A stretch of 26,322 nt of DNA, from positions 1 through 26,322 of IMG/VR virus record IMGVR_UViG_3300003187_000161. One strand, written 5' to 3'. The notes below the pieces were generated by a model that saw only the letters and a program-made list of their open reading frames with translations, did no database searches and was not told the origin of the DNA. This DNA comes from a virus. Of this stretch, positions 11,509 to 26,322 are shown one piece after another. A program made the translations under genes and the position numbers. Position 1 is the stretch's first letter; each line of letters opens with the position of its first letter.

Positions 11509-12186
11509 TCACCACACCTCCACGAGGTCCAGCGTCGCCGTGCCGGTGCGAGCGAGCTGCAGCTCGAAGGCCCCGCTGTCGTCGGTCGACAGCCGCATCG
11601 GCGCCCGGGCACGGCACCATTCGACCGTAGCCCCCTCGGCGGCGCCGGCGCGCAGTTTCGGCCGGATGTCGAGCACCGTCTCCTCGTTCGGTTCCGGGTC
11701 GACGCCGACGACGACATGGAGATGGCCGCCAAGGCCGAGAAAGCTGCCTTCCAGCACCGGCAGCACGGTCGATCCGTTGACGATCCGGATCGTCGTGGCG
11801 CCGGCCGCGGCCGGCTCCGCCAAGGTCGGCGCGGCGCCGCCCTGCCTGAAACCGGAGCCGTCGCTGTGCAGCGACCGATCGCTGTAGGGGATGTCGTCCA
11901 CCACCGGAATCAGCCGGTTGCCGTTGCGGCAGTCGCAGGGCCCGACGCGGACCGCGTTGGTCCGGCCGTCGAGGCGGGCCAGCAGCGACCGCATGGCCCG
12001 GATCTTGGCCGGCGTGTGTAGTGGCACGGTCAGTTGCGCCACCCAGCGGCCGAGATTCGATGTCACGACCTGCTCGCGGCCGGAGATGGTCTCACCGCCG
12101 GAACGGGTGCGCGCGTCGATCCGGAAGGTCTCGGCATTGGCGATCAGGATCGCCGGCCAGTCGTAGATGATCATCGGCGTGCTCAT
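11509..12186 (-). CDS. Minor tail protein, intact copy of a duplicated gene
   Basis: A 225-aa protein starting MSTPMIIYDWPAILIANAET, with a distinctive GPCDCRNGNRLIPVVDD centre and a beta-rich C-terminus. No named family recognised; its place after a tape-measure end and before the hub gene suggests a distal-tail or minor tail role. The start at 12186 overlaps the mini tape-measure stop (ATGA), exactly as the broken copy at 13469 overlaps the main tape-measure stop. The first ~60 codons are nearly identical to that broken copy. As the intact copy, it is presumably the functional one, and it relies on translation coupling from the 52-codon mini gene. Confidence 0.75.
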   Translation of the reverse strand: MSTPMIIYDWPAILIANAETFRIDARTRSGGETISGREQVVTSNLGRWVAQLTVPLHTPAKIRAMRSLLARLDGRTNAVRVGPCDCRNGNRLIPVVDDIPYSDRSLHSDGSGFRQGGAAPTLAEPAAAGATTIRIVNGSTVLPVLEGSFLGLGGHLHVVVGVDPEPNEETVLDIRPKLRAGAAEGATVEWCRARAPMRLSTDDSGAFELQLARTGTATLDLVEVW

Positions 12187-12223
12187 GCGAAGCGGATCCG
12201 GTGCTGGCGGTTGATCTCGGGCA
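12007..12223. repeat. 217-bp direct repeat, copy 2
   Basis: Matches 13290-13506 without gaps, with 12 mismatches by my count. It covers the last codons of a tape measure and the first ~60 codons of the minor tail gene. The mismatches are mainly transitions at codon third positions, indicating that both copies were once under selection. It is a likely substrate for homologous recombination. Confidence 0.9.
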
Positions 12224-13090: not shown

Positions 13091-13469
13091 TGCTTCGAGC
13101 ACTGGCAGCACGGTCGATCCGTTGACGATCCGGATCGTCGCGGCACCGGCCGCCGTTGGCGCCGCCATCTTCGGCGCGATACCACCCTGCCTGAACCAGT
13201 GCCGTCGCTGCATAGCGACCGGTCGCTATAGGGAATATTGCCAACCACCGGGATCAGTTTGCCGTCGCGGCAGTCGCGGGGCCCAACACGGCCGGCGTGC
13301 GCAGCGGCACGGTCAGCTGCGCCACCCAGCGGCCGAGATTCGATGTGACGACCTGCTCGCGGCCGGAGATGGTCTCGCCGCCGGAGCGGGTGCGCGCGTC
13401 AATCCGGAAGGTCTCGGCATTGGCGACCAGGACCGCCGGCCAGTCATAGATGATCATGGGCGTGCTCAT
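13090..13469 (-). pseudogene. Broken first copy of the minor tail gene
   Basis: Starts like the intact gene at 12186 (MSTPMIIYDWPAVLVANAET) with an ATGA overlap at the tape-measure stop. After codon ~58 (LTVPLRTPA) roughly 60 bp are missing relative to the intact copy, shifting the frame to an early stop at 13254. The old frame is still readable beyond the lesion as RVGPRDCRDGKLIPVVGNIP followed by YSDRSLCSDG. Homology to the intact gene ends at ~13090, where the chaperone remnant begins. The frame may still give a truncated ~71-aa peptide. It is one half of the duplicated tail block. Confidence 0.88.
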
Positions 13470-13506
13470 GCGAAGCGGATCCGGTGCTGGCGGTTGATCT
13501 CGGGCA
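13290..13506. repeat. 217-bp direct repeat, copy 1
   Basis: Partner of 12007-12223 (12 mismatches, no gaps by my count). It spans the real tape-measure 3' end and the start of the broken minor tail gene. Weaker homology continues from 13289 to about 13090, matching 11946-11743. Confidence 0.9.
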
Positions 13507-20460: not shown

Positions 20461-20493
20461 GACCGTTCTCCGAAGAATTGGGAAGAGATCGAA

Positions 20494-20633
20494 GCCTGTT
20501 CGAGCATGCGTTCGGGGTGAGTCGGCTGGCGGTGGTATCGAGAACCGGCGCGCAGCGGACGTTAAAGTCCGTGAGCACCGGAAGCGCAGAAACCGCCGTC
20601 AGACGGCCGCCCCGGGCGCATGATCGGACAGGC
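20494..20633. repeat. Structured intergenic element, copy B (after the capsid gene)
   Basis: A ~140-bp element bounded by 17-bp inverted repeats (20494-20510 and 20617-20633, 15 of 17 matching) that fills most of the gap between capsid stop and next gene. The inside closely matches the element at 24630-24763: a GGCGGT/ACCGCC stem, a CCGG/CCGG pair and a CGGAC/GTCCG hairpin whose loop differs between copies. No ORF in it looks real. Confidence 0.8.
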
Positions 20634-20636
20634 GGC

Positions 20637-21590
20637 TCAGATGCCGTCGGCGTAGCGGAAAGCCTTCGGCCGCCGGATCTCGACCCCGCCGGTGCGGAAG
20701 ATGCCCGGAACGTCGAATGTCAGCGGCCCGGACGGCGACGGCGCCAGGAACTGGTGCGGCATCGGCAGGTGCAGCCGGACCACCTGCGGGTCGCGGCGAT
20801 AGGCGACCATCCGCGCGGCGTTGCCGGCCCCGGCATTCTCCAGCCCGCGCACGGCCCGGATCGTCAGCGGCGCGCCGGTGATCGCGGTGTAGGTGTTGTT
20901 GCGGCGCAGATACTCGAGGATGGTCGTGTCGGAGAAGCCGCTCCGCGCCGTGTCGGCCAGGGCGGTGAACCGGGCCACCGGCAGCAGCAGCGTGTCCGCC
21001 ATCTCCACCGTGAGCGACCCCTGATAGACGCCGGTCAGCAGGGCGTTGATGTCGCGCAGGATCTGGTCGGGGGTCTTGTCGGCCCACAAGGTCGACGCCC
21101 CGCTGCCGTCATTGAGGACGAGGCCCGCGGTGACGTTCGGGTCGTTGATCAGGCCGGTCCAGCCCTTGACGACGCCGCTCGGCGGCACGCCGCGCAGGGC
21201 GAGGCCGTCCATGAACTCCTCATAGGCACGGACGGCTGCCGCGGCCCGATCCGCCGAAAGATTGGTGCCCGGCACCATCATCGCCTGGCCCAGCTCCTGC
21301 AGCGTGTAGCGGTAGCCGATCGCCGCCATCTCGATCGGACGGTCGTGCTGCGCGCGCTCCACATCGGCGAGCGGGATGTCCTTGGCCTGGTGGTTGATCC
21401 AGTCGGCCTGGCCGACCTTGTCGGTGGAGAAGAAGGTGACGCTCCTGGCCCAGGGATTGGCCGAGGTGTCGACCGGCAGCAGCGCCGGATACTGAATGTC
21501 GGGATACTGGATCTCGTAGACCTGCGCCTCGATGCTGGCGGTCTGGGAGACGAGGAAGCCCAGCGCCTGCTGGGCGTCGAATGCGAACAT
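20637..21590 (-). CDS. Major capsid protein (DUF2184)
   Basis: A 317-aa protein starting MFAFDAQQALGFLVSQTASI, then PDIQYPALLPVDTSANPWAR and DIPLADVERAQHDRPIEMAA, a canonical DUF2184 N-terminal pattern. The rest keeps the expected order: a YEEFMDGLALRG helix, GWTGLINDPNV, YLRRNNTYTAITG and a C-terminal GIFRTGGVEIRRPKAF. The start at 21590 uses AAGGAGCC. HK97-fold shells of this type pair with DUF2213 and DUF2190 proteins, both present upstream. A structured repeat element follows the stop. Confidence 0.92.
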   Translation of the reverse strand: MFAFDAQQALGFLVSQTASIEAQVYEIQYPDIQYPALLPVDTSANPWARSVTFFSTDKVGQADWINHQAKDIPLADVERAQHDRPIEMAAIGYRYTLQELGQAMMVPGTNLSADRAAAAVRAYEEFMDGLALRGVPPSGVVKGWTGLINDPNVTAGLVLNDGSGASTLWADKTPDQILRDINALLTGVYQGSLTVEMADTLLLPVARFTALADTARSGFSDTTILEYLRRNNTYTAITGAPLTIRAVRGLENAGAGNAARMVAYRRDPQVVRLHLPMPHQFLAPSPSGPLTFDVPGIFRTGGVEIRRPKAFRYADGI

Positions 21591-21630
21591 GGAAGGCTCC
21601 TTCGAAGGGCTGGGCGTCGGAAGGTCCGGA

Positions 21631-22104
21631 TCAGACCGAGGGCAGCGCGCCGCCCAGGCGCACCACGGCCAGGCCGCCATTGGCGGCGCCGGTCATCCAG
21701 CGGGCGCCGGCGATGGCGAAATGGGTGGCGTCGGCCGGCAGGCTGGACAGGATGCCGGTCGCGGCCTCGAACACGACATTGTCGCCGGCCGCGACGGCGC
21801 CGCCGGTCACCACCCAGATGTCGCCCTCGGTCAGCACGGCGCTGCTGGCGCCCTGCCGATAGATGTCGCCGTCGCGCGGGTCGAGCACGACGTCGCGGAT
21901 CGAGATGCCGACGAAGCCGGCGGCCGCGGCGGCGCCGAGCACGCCCCCCTTGGCTCCGGCGCCCTGGCCGACGGCGAGGCCGAAGCCGATGCCGGCGGAG
22001 GTCTCGACGATGCGGGTGTCGGCATCGGCATTGGTCAAGTTGGCAGCCATACCGGCCATGGCCGGGCGCATGGTCTCGCTGTAGCTGTTCTGCACGACGG
22101 CCAT
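21631..22104 (-). CDS. Capsid decoration / structural cement protein (DUF2190-like, Gp24)
   Basis: A 157-aa protein starting MAVVQNSYSETMRPAMAGMA with an Ala/Gly-rich beta pattern (GFVGISIRDVVLDPRDGDIY, GDIWVVTGGAVAAGDNVVFE). This matches the structural cement proteins coded just upstream of DUF2184 capsids. The start at 22104 is preferred over the ATG six codons upstream, because the family begins MAVVQNSYSE and GGAGAG is properly placed. It probably trims or stabilises the head after expansion. Confidence 0.85.
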   Translation of the reverse strand: MAVVQNSYSETMRPAMAGMAANLTNADADTRIVETSAGIGFGLAVGQGAGAKGGVLGAAAAAGFVGISIRDVVLDPRDGDIYRQGASSAVLTEGDIWVVTGGAVAAGDNVVFEAATGILSSLPADATHFAIAGARWMTGAANGGLAVVRLGGALPSV

Positions 22105-23147: not shown

Positions 23148-23197
23148 GGGATCTCCTTGGGATGCGGGCGGGCGAAGCGGCTTCAGCCCTTCATCTG

Positions 23198-23283
23198 TCA
23201 TCACCGGGCTTGACCCGGTGATCCAGAGAATGTCGAGACCGGCACTGGTCGCCCCTGGATTGCCGGGTCAAGCCCGGCAATGA
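23198..23283. repeat. Paired alphaproteobacterial-type intergenic palindrome
   Basis: Two hairpins, ATCACCGGG-CTTGA-CCCGGTGAT (23200-23222) and ATTGCCGGG-TCAAG-CCCGGCAAT (23259-23281), lie within 29-bp outer arms (23198-23226 and 23255-23283) that are inverted repeats of each other at 25 of 29 positions. The four differences keep each hairpin paired. Such CCGGGCTTGACCCGG elements are widespread in alphaproteobacterial chromosomes. This one sits between portal and protease genes. Confidence 0.85.
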
Positions 23284-23307
23284 GAAAAGAAGGGGACGAA
23301 TCGGGCG

Positions 23308-24576: not shown

Positions 24577-24629
24577 GGCCGGCCTCCGAACGTCGAACGG
24601 CGGTCGCTCGATGGGCCTCGCTGCGGAGG

Positions 24630-24763
24630 CCGTTCGAGACCGCGCCTGGGGTGAGTCGAATGGCGGTGGTTTCGAGAACCGGCGCGCAGCGGACATTGGT
24701 CCGTGAGCACCGGAAGCGGAGAAACCGCCGTCAGGCGGCCGCCCCGGGCGCGGTCTCGAACGG
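24630..24763. repeat. Structured intergenic element, copy A (after the terminase gene)
   Basis: A ~134-bp element bounded by perfect 17-bp inverted repeats (24630-24646 and 24747-24763). The inside shares most of its sequence with the element at 20494-20633, including the nested GGCGGT/ACCGCC, CCGG/CCGG and CGGAC/GTCCG pairs. The outer arms differ in sequence from copy B but are self-complementary in both. It begins 3 bp after the terminase stop. Confidence 0.82.
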
Positions 24764-24765
24764 TC

Positions 24766-26322
24766 TCAGACCCAGCGCATCGAGGCGTCGTAGGTGCTGT
24801 GCCTCCGGCTCTCGACGGCATAGCGCAGGGCGTCGATGACGTGGTTCTCGCGGTCCTCGAGCTGCCGCCGCAACTCGCCGGTGTGCCGGTCGGTGCGATA
24901 GCTGTAGAGGGCCAGCTCGTCGATCAGGTGCCGGCAGCGCGGATGCACCAGGATGTCGTGGTTCTGCAGGAAGGCGACACCCTCCTCCACCGACCCCGCC
25001 CCCTTCACCGCCGGCCGCAGGTTGCCGAAGCCATGACGCTGCAGGTAGTTGATCGTCTCGGGCCGGGCGCTGTCGGCGACGATCGGCCATGTCCGCGCCC
25101 CCGGGATGGTGTCGAACAGATCGGCCGTGCGGTCGATCTCGCAGCCGACGCGATAGGCCTCGTGGTCGACGAACAGGGTCCGCCCCACGACGAAGCATCG
25201 CACCAGCACCGTCGGGTCGGTGCTGAAGCCCCAATCGGCGCCGAACAGGAACCGGACGTCGGCTGGCGTCTCGAACGCCTCGACCCGCCAGTTCTTGAAC
25301 ACCTGGGCCTCGCTGACTCGGCGATAGCCGCCGAGCCAGACATGCTGGTGCTTGTCCGGGTCGCGCTGCCGGTCCCACTCCATCTCCGCCTGCAGCACAT
25401 CCGGGAAATGCGGATTCTCAGAATAATTGGCTTTTACCAGCAGGGCGTCGGGCGGCAGCACGGGGCCGCGGAACAGCGCGTCGACCGGATCGTTCGGCTG
25501 GGTCGGGTTCCAGGAGAACCACAGCTCCGACCCCGGCTTGCGGATGGTCGGGCGCAGCAGCTCCAGGCTGCGGGCCGACAGCGACTGCGCCTCCTCGACC
25601 CAGGCGATGTCGTAGCCCTCCAGCGACTTGATCGACTCCGCCGTGTGGTTCTGCATGCCCTGGAAGATGATCCGGCCGCCGGGCGTCAGGATCTGTTCCT
25701 GCTGCACCGTGAAACGGTCGCCGACGCCCAGCACCTGGATCTTATCCTCGATCAGCCGCTTGACCGACTGGTCGAGCGACCGCTGCACCTCGCGGATGCA
25801 CACCGCCCGGACGGGACCTTTGAGGCAGCGCCGCACCAGCAGTTCGGCGAAGAAATGCGACTTGCCCGAGCCGCGCCCGCCATAGGCGCCCTTGTACCGG
25901 GCCCGCGGCAGCAGCTTGGCGAAGACACCGAACTGCTCGGGCGGCGGATCGTCCGGCAGGCGGGGCGCCGCCGCCTTGGCCCGGCTGGTCTTGCCCCTGG
26001 CGGCCGGCACATGCAGGCGGCCGAGGCTCCGGCGCGCCTCCTTCACGGGTCGGCGGAATGCCTTGCCCATGCCGGGCACATCGACACGGCCGGCCAGCTT
26101 CAGCAGCACGCTTTGCACGCGCTTCTTGAGCCGCCCGCCCCTCTGCCGCCGCGCCACCGCCGCCTCAAGCACCGCGATGACCATCTCCGGATCTCGGAGC
26201 ATGCGGGACGCGGAAGAACTGGGGCTCTTGGGGCTGTATCCCGCCCGGATCGCCGCCCGGTCACCATAGCCGTCGACGAGAATCTCCTCGACGAACTTCA
26301 TTTGCTTGGCCGTGCGCTTCAT
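24766..26322 (-). CDS. terL: Terminase large subunit with small-subunit-like N-terminal domain
   Basis: A 518-aa packaging motor. Residues 1-~55 (QMKFVEEILVDGYGDRAAIR, AGYSPKS, SRMLRDPEM) are a Terminase_2-type small-subunit DNA-binding domain. A basic linker runs to ~125. The ATPase follows, with Walker A GGRGSGKS at 148-155 and Walker B DIAWVEEA at 238-245. A C-terminal nuclease has likely metal ligands Asp363 (GADWGFSTDP), Asp417 (VADSARPE) and Asp497 (HVIDALRY). Normally the two subunits are separate genes. The start codon is at the window edge, so extension upstream cannot be excluded, but the N-terminus looks natural. The ATPase/nuclease assignment is firm; the fusion is read directly from one uninterrupted frame. 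Confidence 0.92.
   Translation of the reverse strand: MKRTAKQMKFVEEILVDGYGDRAAIRAGYSPKSPSSSASRMLRDPEMVIAVLEAAVARRQRGGRLKKRVQSVLLKLAGRVDVPGMGKAFRRPVKEARRSLGRLHVPAARGKTSRAKAAAPRLPDDPPPEQFGVFAKLLPRARYKGAYGGRGSGKSHFFAELLVRRCLKGPVRAVCIREVQRSLDQSVKRLIEDKIQVLGVGDRFTVQQEQILTPGGRIIFQGMQNHTAESIKSLEGYDIAWVEEAQSLSARSLELLRPTIRKPGSELWFSWNPTQPNDPVDALFRGPVLPPDALLVKANYSENPHFPDVLQAEMEWDRQRDPDKHQHVWLGGYRRVSEAQVFKNWRVEAFETPADVRFLFGADWGFSTDPTVLVRCFVVGRTLFVDHEAYRVGCEIDRTADLFDTIPGARTWPIVADSARPETINYLQRHGFGNLRPAVKGAGSVEEGVAFLQNHDILVHPRCRHLIDELALYSYRTDRHTGELRRQLEDRENHVIDALRYAVESRRHSTYDASMRWV

Follow-up and report, generated by a model that had tools for sequence, protein, structure and literature searches.

Insertion sequences of the IS1031 group (IS12528-like), which occur in Acetobacteraceae and rhizobia, end in terminal inverted repeats (GAGnCCnTTTGGAAATTCGCT) and duplicate a 3-bp TNA target; IS12528 itself we take to be a member of the IS1031 group with TNA targets. 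Correia/NEMIS, RUP, and ERIC are small, non-coding elements with terminal inverted repeats, target duplications and long stem-loop transcripts, and NEMIS, RUP, and ERIC have TA termini (PMC2229807). REP/BIME sequences and the alphaproteobacterial repeats Br-REP1 and Br-REP2 are palindromes scattered over 3' regions, where they often separate two convergent genes (PMC5082802).

The element described here is found twice in a virus record of 26,322 bases, the whole of which was analysed and is called the window. It has the terminal inverted repeats and the TNA duplications of the IS12528-like insertion sequences, but is about 140 bp long and lacks a transposase where these are about 905 bp, the insertion-sequence ends that were inspected did not show its conserved hairpin core, and it lies exactly at stop codons. 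It is built like Correia/NEMIS, RUP, and ERIC, but differs from them in its stop-codon position, its fixed orientation, its strand-asymmetric fold and an invariant core common to copies with different ends, and these ends are unlike the TA termini. It resembles the REP/BIME type in being a dispersed palindrome of 3' regions, although size and sequence differ from those of the published Br-REP1 and Br-REP2 consensus (PMC5082802). Searching the open-access literature by name, context and sequence string, with RIME sequences outside the comparison, returned no description of the element. The MITE (miniature inverted-repeat transposable element) is already known as a kind, whereas the exact placement at stop codons, the biased orientation, the strand-asymmetric conserved core and its combination with different transposon ends are undescribed in the open-access papers found. 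We consider it likely, with a probability of roughly 0.8, that the two copies are MITEs of the bacterial host carried in a (pro)phage, with IS1031-type ends, placement at stop codons and one folded strand under constraint.

The two copies in the window and their relatives

The late genes of the window (terminase, portal, protease, cement protein and major capsid) all lie on the - strand, and copies A and B are near-palindromes of about 140 bp located 3' of the terminase and capsid genes (Table 1). The initial annotation had placed them at 24630-24763 and 20494-20633; they are real, with slightly wider approximate ends once these are guided by the insertion sequences, and its account of their anatomy holds, i.e., 17-bp outer arms that differ between the copies but each match their own partner (17/17 and 15/17), a conserved interior common to both copies, an inner CGGAC/GTCCG hairpin with an altered loop, and closeness to the stop codons of the two genes. 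A refinement is that both genes are on the - strand, so that the well-folding + strand is antisense to them. The + strand folds with -107.4 kcal/mol in copy A and -99 kcal/mol in copy B (z scores against shuffles of -12.0 and -10.1), and the - strand with -86.8 and -76 kcal/mol, respectively. The element is non-coding, as seen from its length and from loop-length changes between copies that shift every frame. At the terminase end, the L179 protein extends 11 residues beyond that of the window and the L204 protein stops at the same residue; the terminase combines a small-subunit-like N-terminus (Terminase_2) with a large subunit (Terminase_3, Terminase_3C) in a single chain.

Table 1. Coordinates of the element copies and adjoining genes in the window.
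Feature	Position	Strand	Remarks
Terminase gene (Terminase_3)	24766..26322	-	Stop abutted by copy A
Major capsid gene (PF09950)	20637..21680	-	Stop abutted by copy B
Element copy A (MITE)	24626..24767	+	Covariance model 24625-24763, 118.8 bits; end set by GAG..CTC terminal repeats
Element copy B (MITE)	20491..20636	+	Covariance model 20491-20631, 122.9 bits
Copy A left terminal inverted repeat, GAGGCCGTTCGAGACCGCGC	24626..24645	+	Compare IS12528-like ends GAGnCCGTTTGnGAAT
Copy A right terminal inverted repeat, last bases GGTCTCGAACGGTCTC	24748..24767	+	
Copy A conserved core, CGAGAACCGGCGCGCAGCGGAC(loop)GTCCGTGAGCACCGGAAGCGGAG	24673..24721	+	Near-invariant across family
Copy B conserved core	20539..20589	+	
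Terminase stop codon TGA	24766..24768	-	Shares last two bases of copy A
Major capsid stop codon TGA	20637..20639	-	Directly adjoins right end of copy B

Other repeats are present in the same record. A third palindromic intergenic element, unrelated to copies A and B, lies at 23187-23294 between the portal and DUF2213 protease genes, so that palindromic repeats occupy three spacers of the phage head-gene block; it has 40-nt arms that are 83% complementary and contains CCGGGCTTGACCCGG, a motif seen again in 8 of 180 host loci. Direct repeats of 217 nt that are 94% identical (12007-12223 and 13290-13506) lie between the tail-fibre and head genes, surrounded by weaker further repeats.

In total 232 distinct copies of the element were collected from Inquilinus, Mesorhizobium, Bosea, Phyllobacterium, and sphingomonads. 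A 19-nt piece of the core occurs in 24 viral stretches and in at least 120 stretches of bacterial genomes, and the bacterial matches are labelled alphaproteobacterial or unspecified Proteobacteria with the sole exception of 'Mycobacterium sp. KBS0706'. Five contigs of that record (L059, L073, L089, L102, and L118) contain elements of the Inquilinus type and can be aligned with strains of Inquilinus limosus, and going by its sequence the record looks misnamed. With a 54-nt core query 22 plasmid records were matched. A covariance model built from 68 relatives returned many chromosomal copies: at least 85 in Inquilinus limosus strain Inq, at least 67 in Bosea caraganae, at least 43 in Mesorhizobium AR07, and at least 39 each in one Phyllobacterium and one Sphingobium. 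As only 150 candidates were scored per genome these counts are lower bounds, and so is the range of 25-85 copies found in single genomes of Inquilinus, Bosea, and Mesorhizobium; a Methylorubrum had 0 copies among the candidates scored. A search of Rfam gave no family above its gathering score, the best chance match being VA RNA with 24.8 bits against a cut-off of 62. In four viral contigs (L008, L013, L017, and L027) another palindromic repeat (GAGCGCTGCGCGTCCAATTGGACGCGC...GGGGTCATGCGC) is inserted in the apical loop, which indicates that the loop tolerates large insertions.

The initial annotation had left a choice between a phage RNA acting in processing, attenuation or antitermination and a mobile palindromic element. 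A regulatory RNA between late genes would fit the strong fold, the fact that a single phage has it twice, each time behind a late gene, and the finding that four related (pro)phages of Inquilinus type (L004, L026, L028, and L089) have orthologous copies at these two positions. The 54-nt core is however without a match among 50,697 phage records, from which it follows that this is a host element carried by the (pro)phage; the element is absent from all 80 viral loci with a terminase that were fetched as relatives, including L179, which is 78% identical and has no element behind its terminase; dozens of chromosomal copies lie behind unrelated genes; the strand that folds is the antisense strand of the phage genes; and the element has insertion-sequence ends. 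As a general explanation the phage RNA is thereby refuted, and for the two copies at hand we regard it as very improbable.

Insertion-sequence ends and mobility

The other proposal, a mobile element, is borne out by the dozens of chromosomal copies per genome and by empty sites with a target duplication and insertion-sequence ends. When the element is removed from Inquilinus copies the joined flanks match contiguous DNA in sister strains. In the cleanest case, at 97% identity, the filled site in strain Inq (L071) reads GCGG-TCA-gagacc...ggtctc-TCA-GGCC and the empty site in MP06 reads GCGG-TCA-GGCC (GCGGTCAGGCC), i.e., insertion was precise and produced a 3-bp duplication. An identical TNA triplet (TCA, TTA, or TGA) is found on both flanks in 33 of 209 copies, the two copies of the window themselves having no intact target duplication. 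The element ends (GAGACCGTTTGGAAAT...) are those of insertion sequences of the IS5 family, IS1031 group (IS12528-like), and repeats resembling the outer arms flank the transposase genes of the DUF4096/DDE_Tnp_1 type that these bacteria possess; the best 18-nt match between insertion-sequence and element ends is 15-17 of 18, compared with 11-13 in control DNA. IS12528-like insertion sequences of the IS5 family in annotated plasmids have the ends GAGCCCTTTTGGAAATTCGCT, GAGACCGTTTGAGAATG, and GAGACCGTTTTGAAAATG and are flanked by the TNA duplications TAA, TCA, TGA, and TTA. A second subfamily of the element matches a different insertion sequence (L401) at 16 of 18 positions, and for a sphingomonad subfamily with CTAG-type ends no insertion-sequence match was better than control.

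Taken together, the insertion-sequence ends, the shared 3-bp TNA duplications and the empty sites identify the element as a MITE: it is short (below about 300 bp) and non-coding, its terminal repeats match those of an autonomous insertion sequence, and duplications and empty sites are found at the level of the family. It has the TNA duplication of the IS1031 group but no DDE transposase (DUF4096/DDE_Tnp_1), for which it is too short, and is therefore a derivative of that group and not a member. The enzyme that moves it in trans is very probably an IS1031-group transposase. The draft assembly of strain Inq, with its at least 85 copies, yielded no transposase of this group, and the loci inspected there for an intact insertion sequence with the exact ends of the element held only elements and one degenerate end.

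A REP-like element mobilised on single-stranded DNA by a REP-associated tyrosine transposase (RAYT) would likewise show a strand-specific hairpin and many intergenic copies, and would be found near stop codons as REPs are. The transposase type differs, since a Y1 transposase (PF01797) is present in only one of eight element-rich genomes, and such a mechanism is at odds with the 3-bp duplications and with terminal repeats of the insertion-sequence type, so that this origin is hardly credible. An integron attC site is expected to have conserved ends and a variable interior, whereas the element has a conserved interior and varying ends.

Covariation and strand asymmetry of the fold

The pairing first noticed in two copies is conserved in further ones. 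In the alignment of 68 relatives 93.3% of cells pair and 23 of 33 consensus pairs have double-sided changes; the covariation score is 0.425, whereas shuffles reach 0.162 and slid partners no more than 0.103. That pairing kept while sequence changes implies selection for structure is true of only part of the element. Since the outer arms are terminal inverted repeats, part of their covariation reflects the need for two matching ends, and in the last five pairs this need is the main constraint, with a ratio of G-T to A-C of about 1:1. Further in, strand-asymmetric covariation indicates selection on a folded single strand. To avoid bias, mismatches were counted in a strand-neutral alignment of the left arm with the reversed right arm that rewards Watson-Crick matches only. 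On the + strand this gave 1040 G-T and 112 A-C mismatches, with G-T in excess in 217 copies and A-C in 8; these counts are not independent because the copies are related. The ratio rises from about 1 in the outermost five pairs to 33 in the innermost stem (393 vs. 12). Orthologous sites (six in Mesorhizobium, four phage capsid sites, and others) show coordinated changes of both pairing partners within one and the same copy, and there too G-U is more frequent than A-C. The + strand is the more stable in 227 of 232 copies, by a mean difference of 16.8 kcal/mol. No U-tract follows the hairpin.

This asymmetry bears on a further possibility, namely that the element is an ordinary MITE without function, whose palindrome descends from a master copy and is kept neat by template switching and whose position merely marks harmless sites. 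Such an element would have the observed terminal repeats, duplications and empty sites, its outermost pairs would show no strand preference, and convergent or tandem gene ends would be harmless places for it. Template switching can mimic compensation in palindromes, but would remove G-T and A-C equally and would not favour G-U; moreover compensation is found within orthologous sites, and the exact stop position and the orientation bias described below exceed the null expectation. We therefore hold this explanation to be possible but not probable. The preferred reading, a MITE with one strand under constraint, takes the asymmetry of mismatches and stability to mean that selection acts on the strand that is antisense to the adjoining gene, be it as RNA or as single-stranded DNA.

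Position at stop codons and its possible cause

Gene neighbours were counted for the 209 unique copies that had a gene called on either side. Genes were called with a codon model trained by iteration, which finds the terminase, capsid and portal genes of the window and was compared with annotated plasmids in spot checks. Of the 209 copies, 189 have a right neighbour that runs antisense to the element, and in 161 its stop codon lies exactly at the right end of the element, against 9 copies in the mirror arrangement. The left neighbour is far less constrained (116 on the - and 91 on the + strand, all right neighbours counted). By the null expectation stop codons are 12% of non-coding TNA sites, or 35% within 60 nt behind a stop. 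Among tandem gene pairs the tolerated orientation of the element is seen 106 times and the opposite one 9 times, compared with a host background of 235 and 220; the rarity of copies between co-directional + strand genes fits harm caused by a + strand hairpin inside an mRNA. Among the annotated plasmids, 5 records representing 4 distinct loci have a stop at the end of the element and one more lies nearby, and the other records do not fit or are without annotation.

The placement may have arisen at the insertion step or by later selection. All 33 intact duplications are TNA triplets that read as a stop on one strand, which is true of any TNA since one of its strands always reads TGA or TAA; an element entering a stop codon would thus copy the stop and spare the protein. 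This explains why stop sites are harmless, but not why other sites are empty. If selection had removed insertions elsewhere, recent insertions off stops would be expected, yet 28 of the 33 copies with intact duplication are called exactly at the right-hand stop and 2 at the left-hand one (30/33), and this leans towards the insertion step. The behaviour of the parent insertion sequence leans towards selection, as only 1 of 21 autonomous copies is at a stop codon (1/9 and 0/12) and the transposase alone does not explain the precision.

Targeting without selection, by a transposition complex that prefers gene ends or by a step tied to translation termination, would account for the copies with intact duplication just mentioned and for boundary stops that are used as in the host (TGA/TAG/TAA 64/22/14% vs. 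68/19/13%, p = 0.75), with enrichment of a C before the stop (69% vs. 42%, p = 3e-5). Autonomous insertion sequences with the same ends are however not placed in this way, and we know of no enzyme that reads all stop codons in DNA. Targeting of this kind is in our opinion rather unlikely.

A different cause is suggested by the fold. In the RNA (or single-stranded DNA) that is antisense to the host gene, and only there, the inner hairpin would stay strong. Transcription running against the gene might then be stopped by this hairpin or the transcript cut by RNase III, transcription in the direction of the gene itself would meet the weaker hairpin and be tolerated, and insertions at other places or in other orientations would be lost. 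As a tentative proposal, about which we have more doubt than confidence, the hairpin is strong only antisense to the gene and most likely serves as such a one-way barrier to opposing transcription. It is tempting to go further and picture the elements as mobile RNA diodes, in which a conserved hairpin travels between different IS5-type ends, is set at any stop codon, nearly always antisense, and is selected as it shields gene ends from opposing transcription; this bolder model is speculative and we would not expect it to be correct in full. If confirmed, the element would be a transposon derivative that, unlike its parent insertion sequence, is placed at stop codons to the exact base and in a fixed orientation, and a natural test case for filtering or targeting of intergenic repeats. 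Its one-sided G-U pattern would then indicate, directly and measurably, that bacteria protect their gene ends against antisense transcription, and prophages carrying the element would be one route of its spread.

Two subfamilies of the element have also been found at the stop of what is apparently the same gene end, one in L005, L015, L024, and L135 and the other in L006, L018, and L021, apparently as independent insertions at one stop codon.
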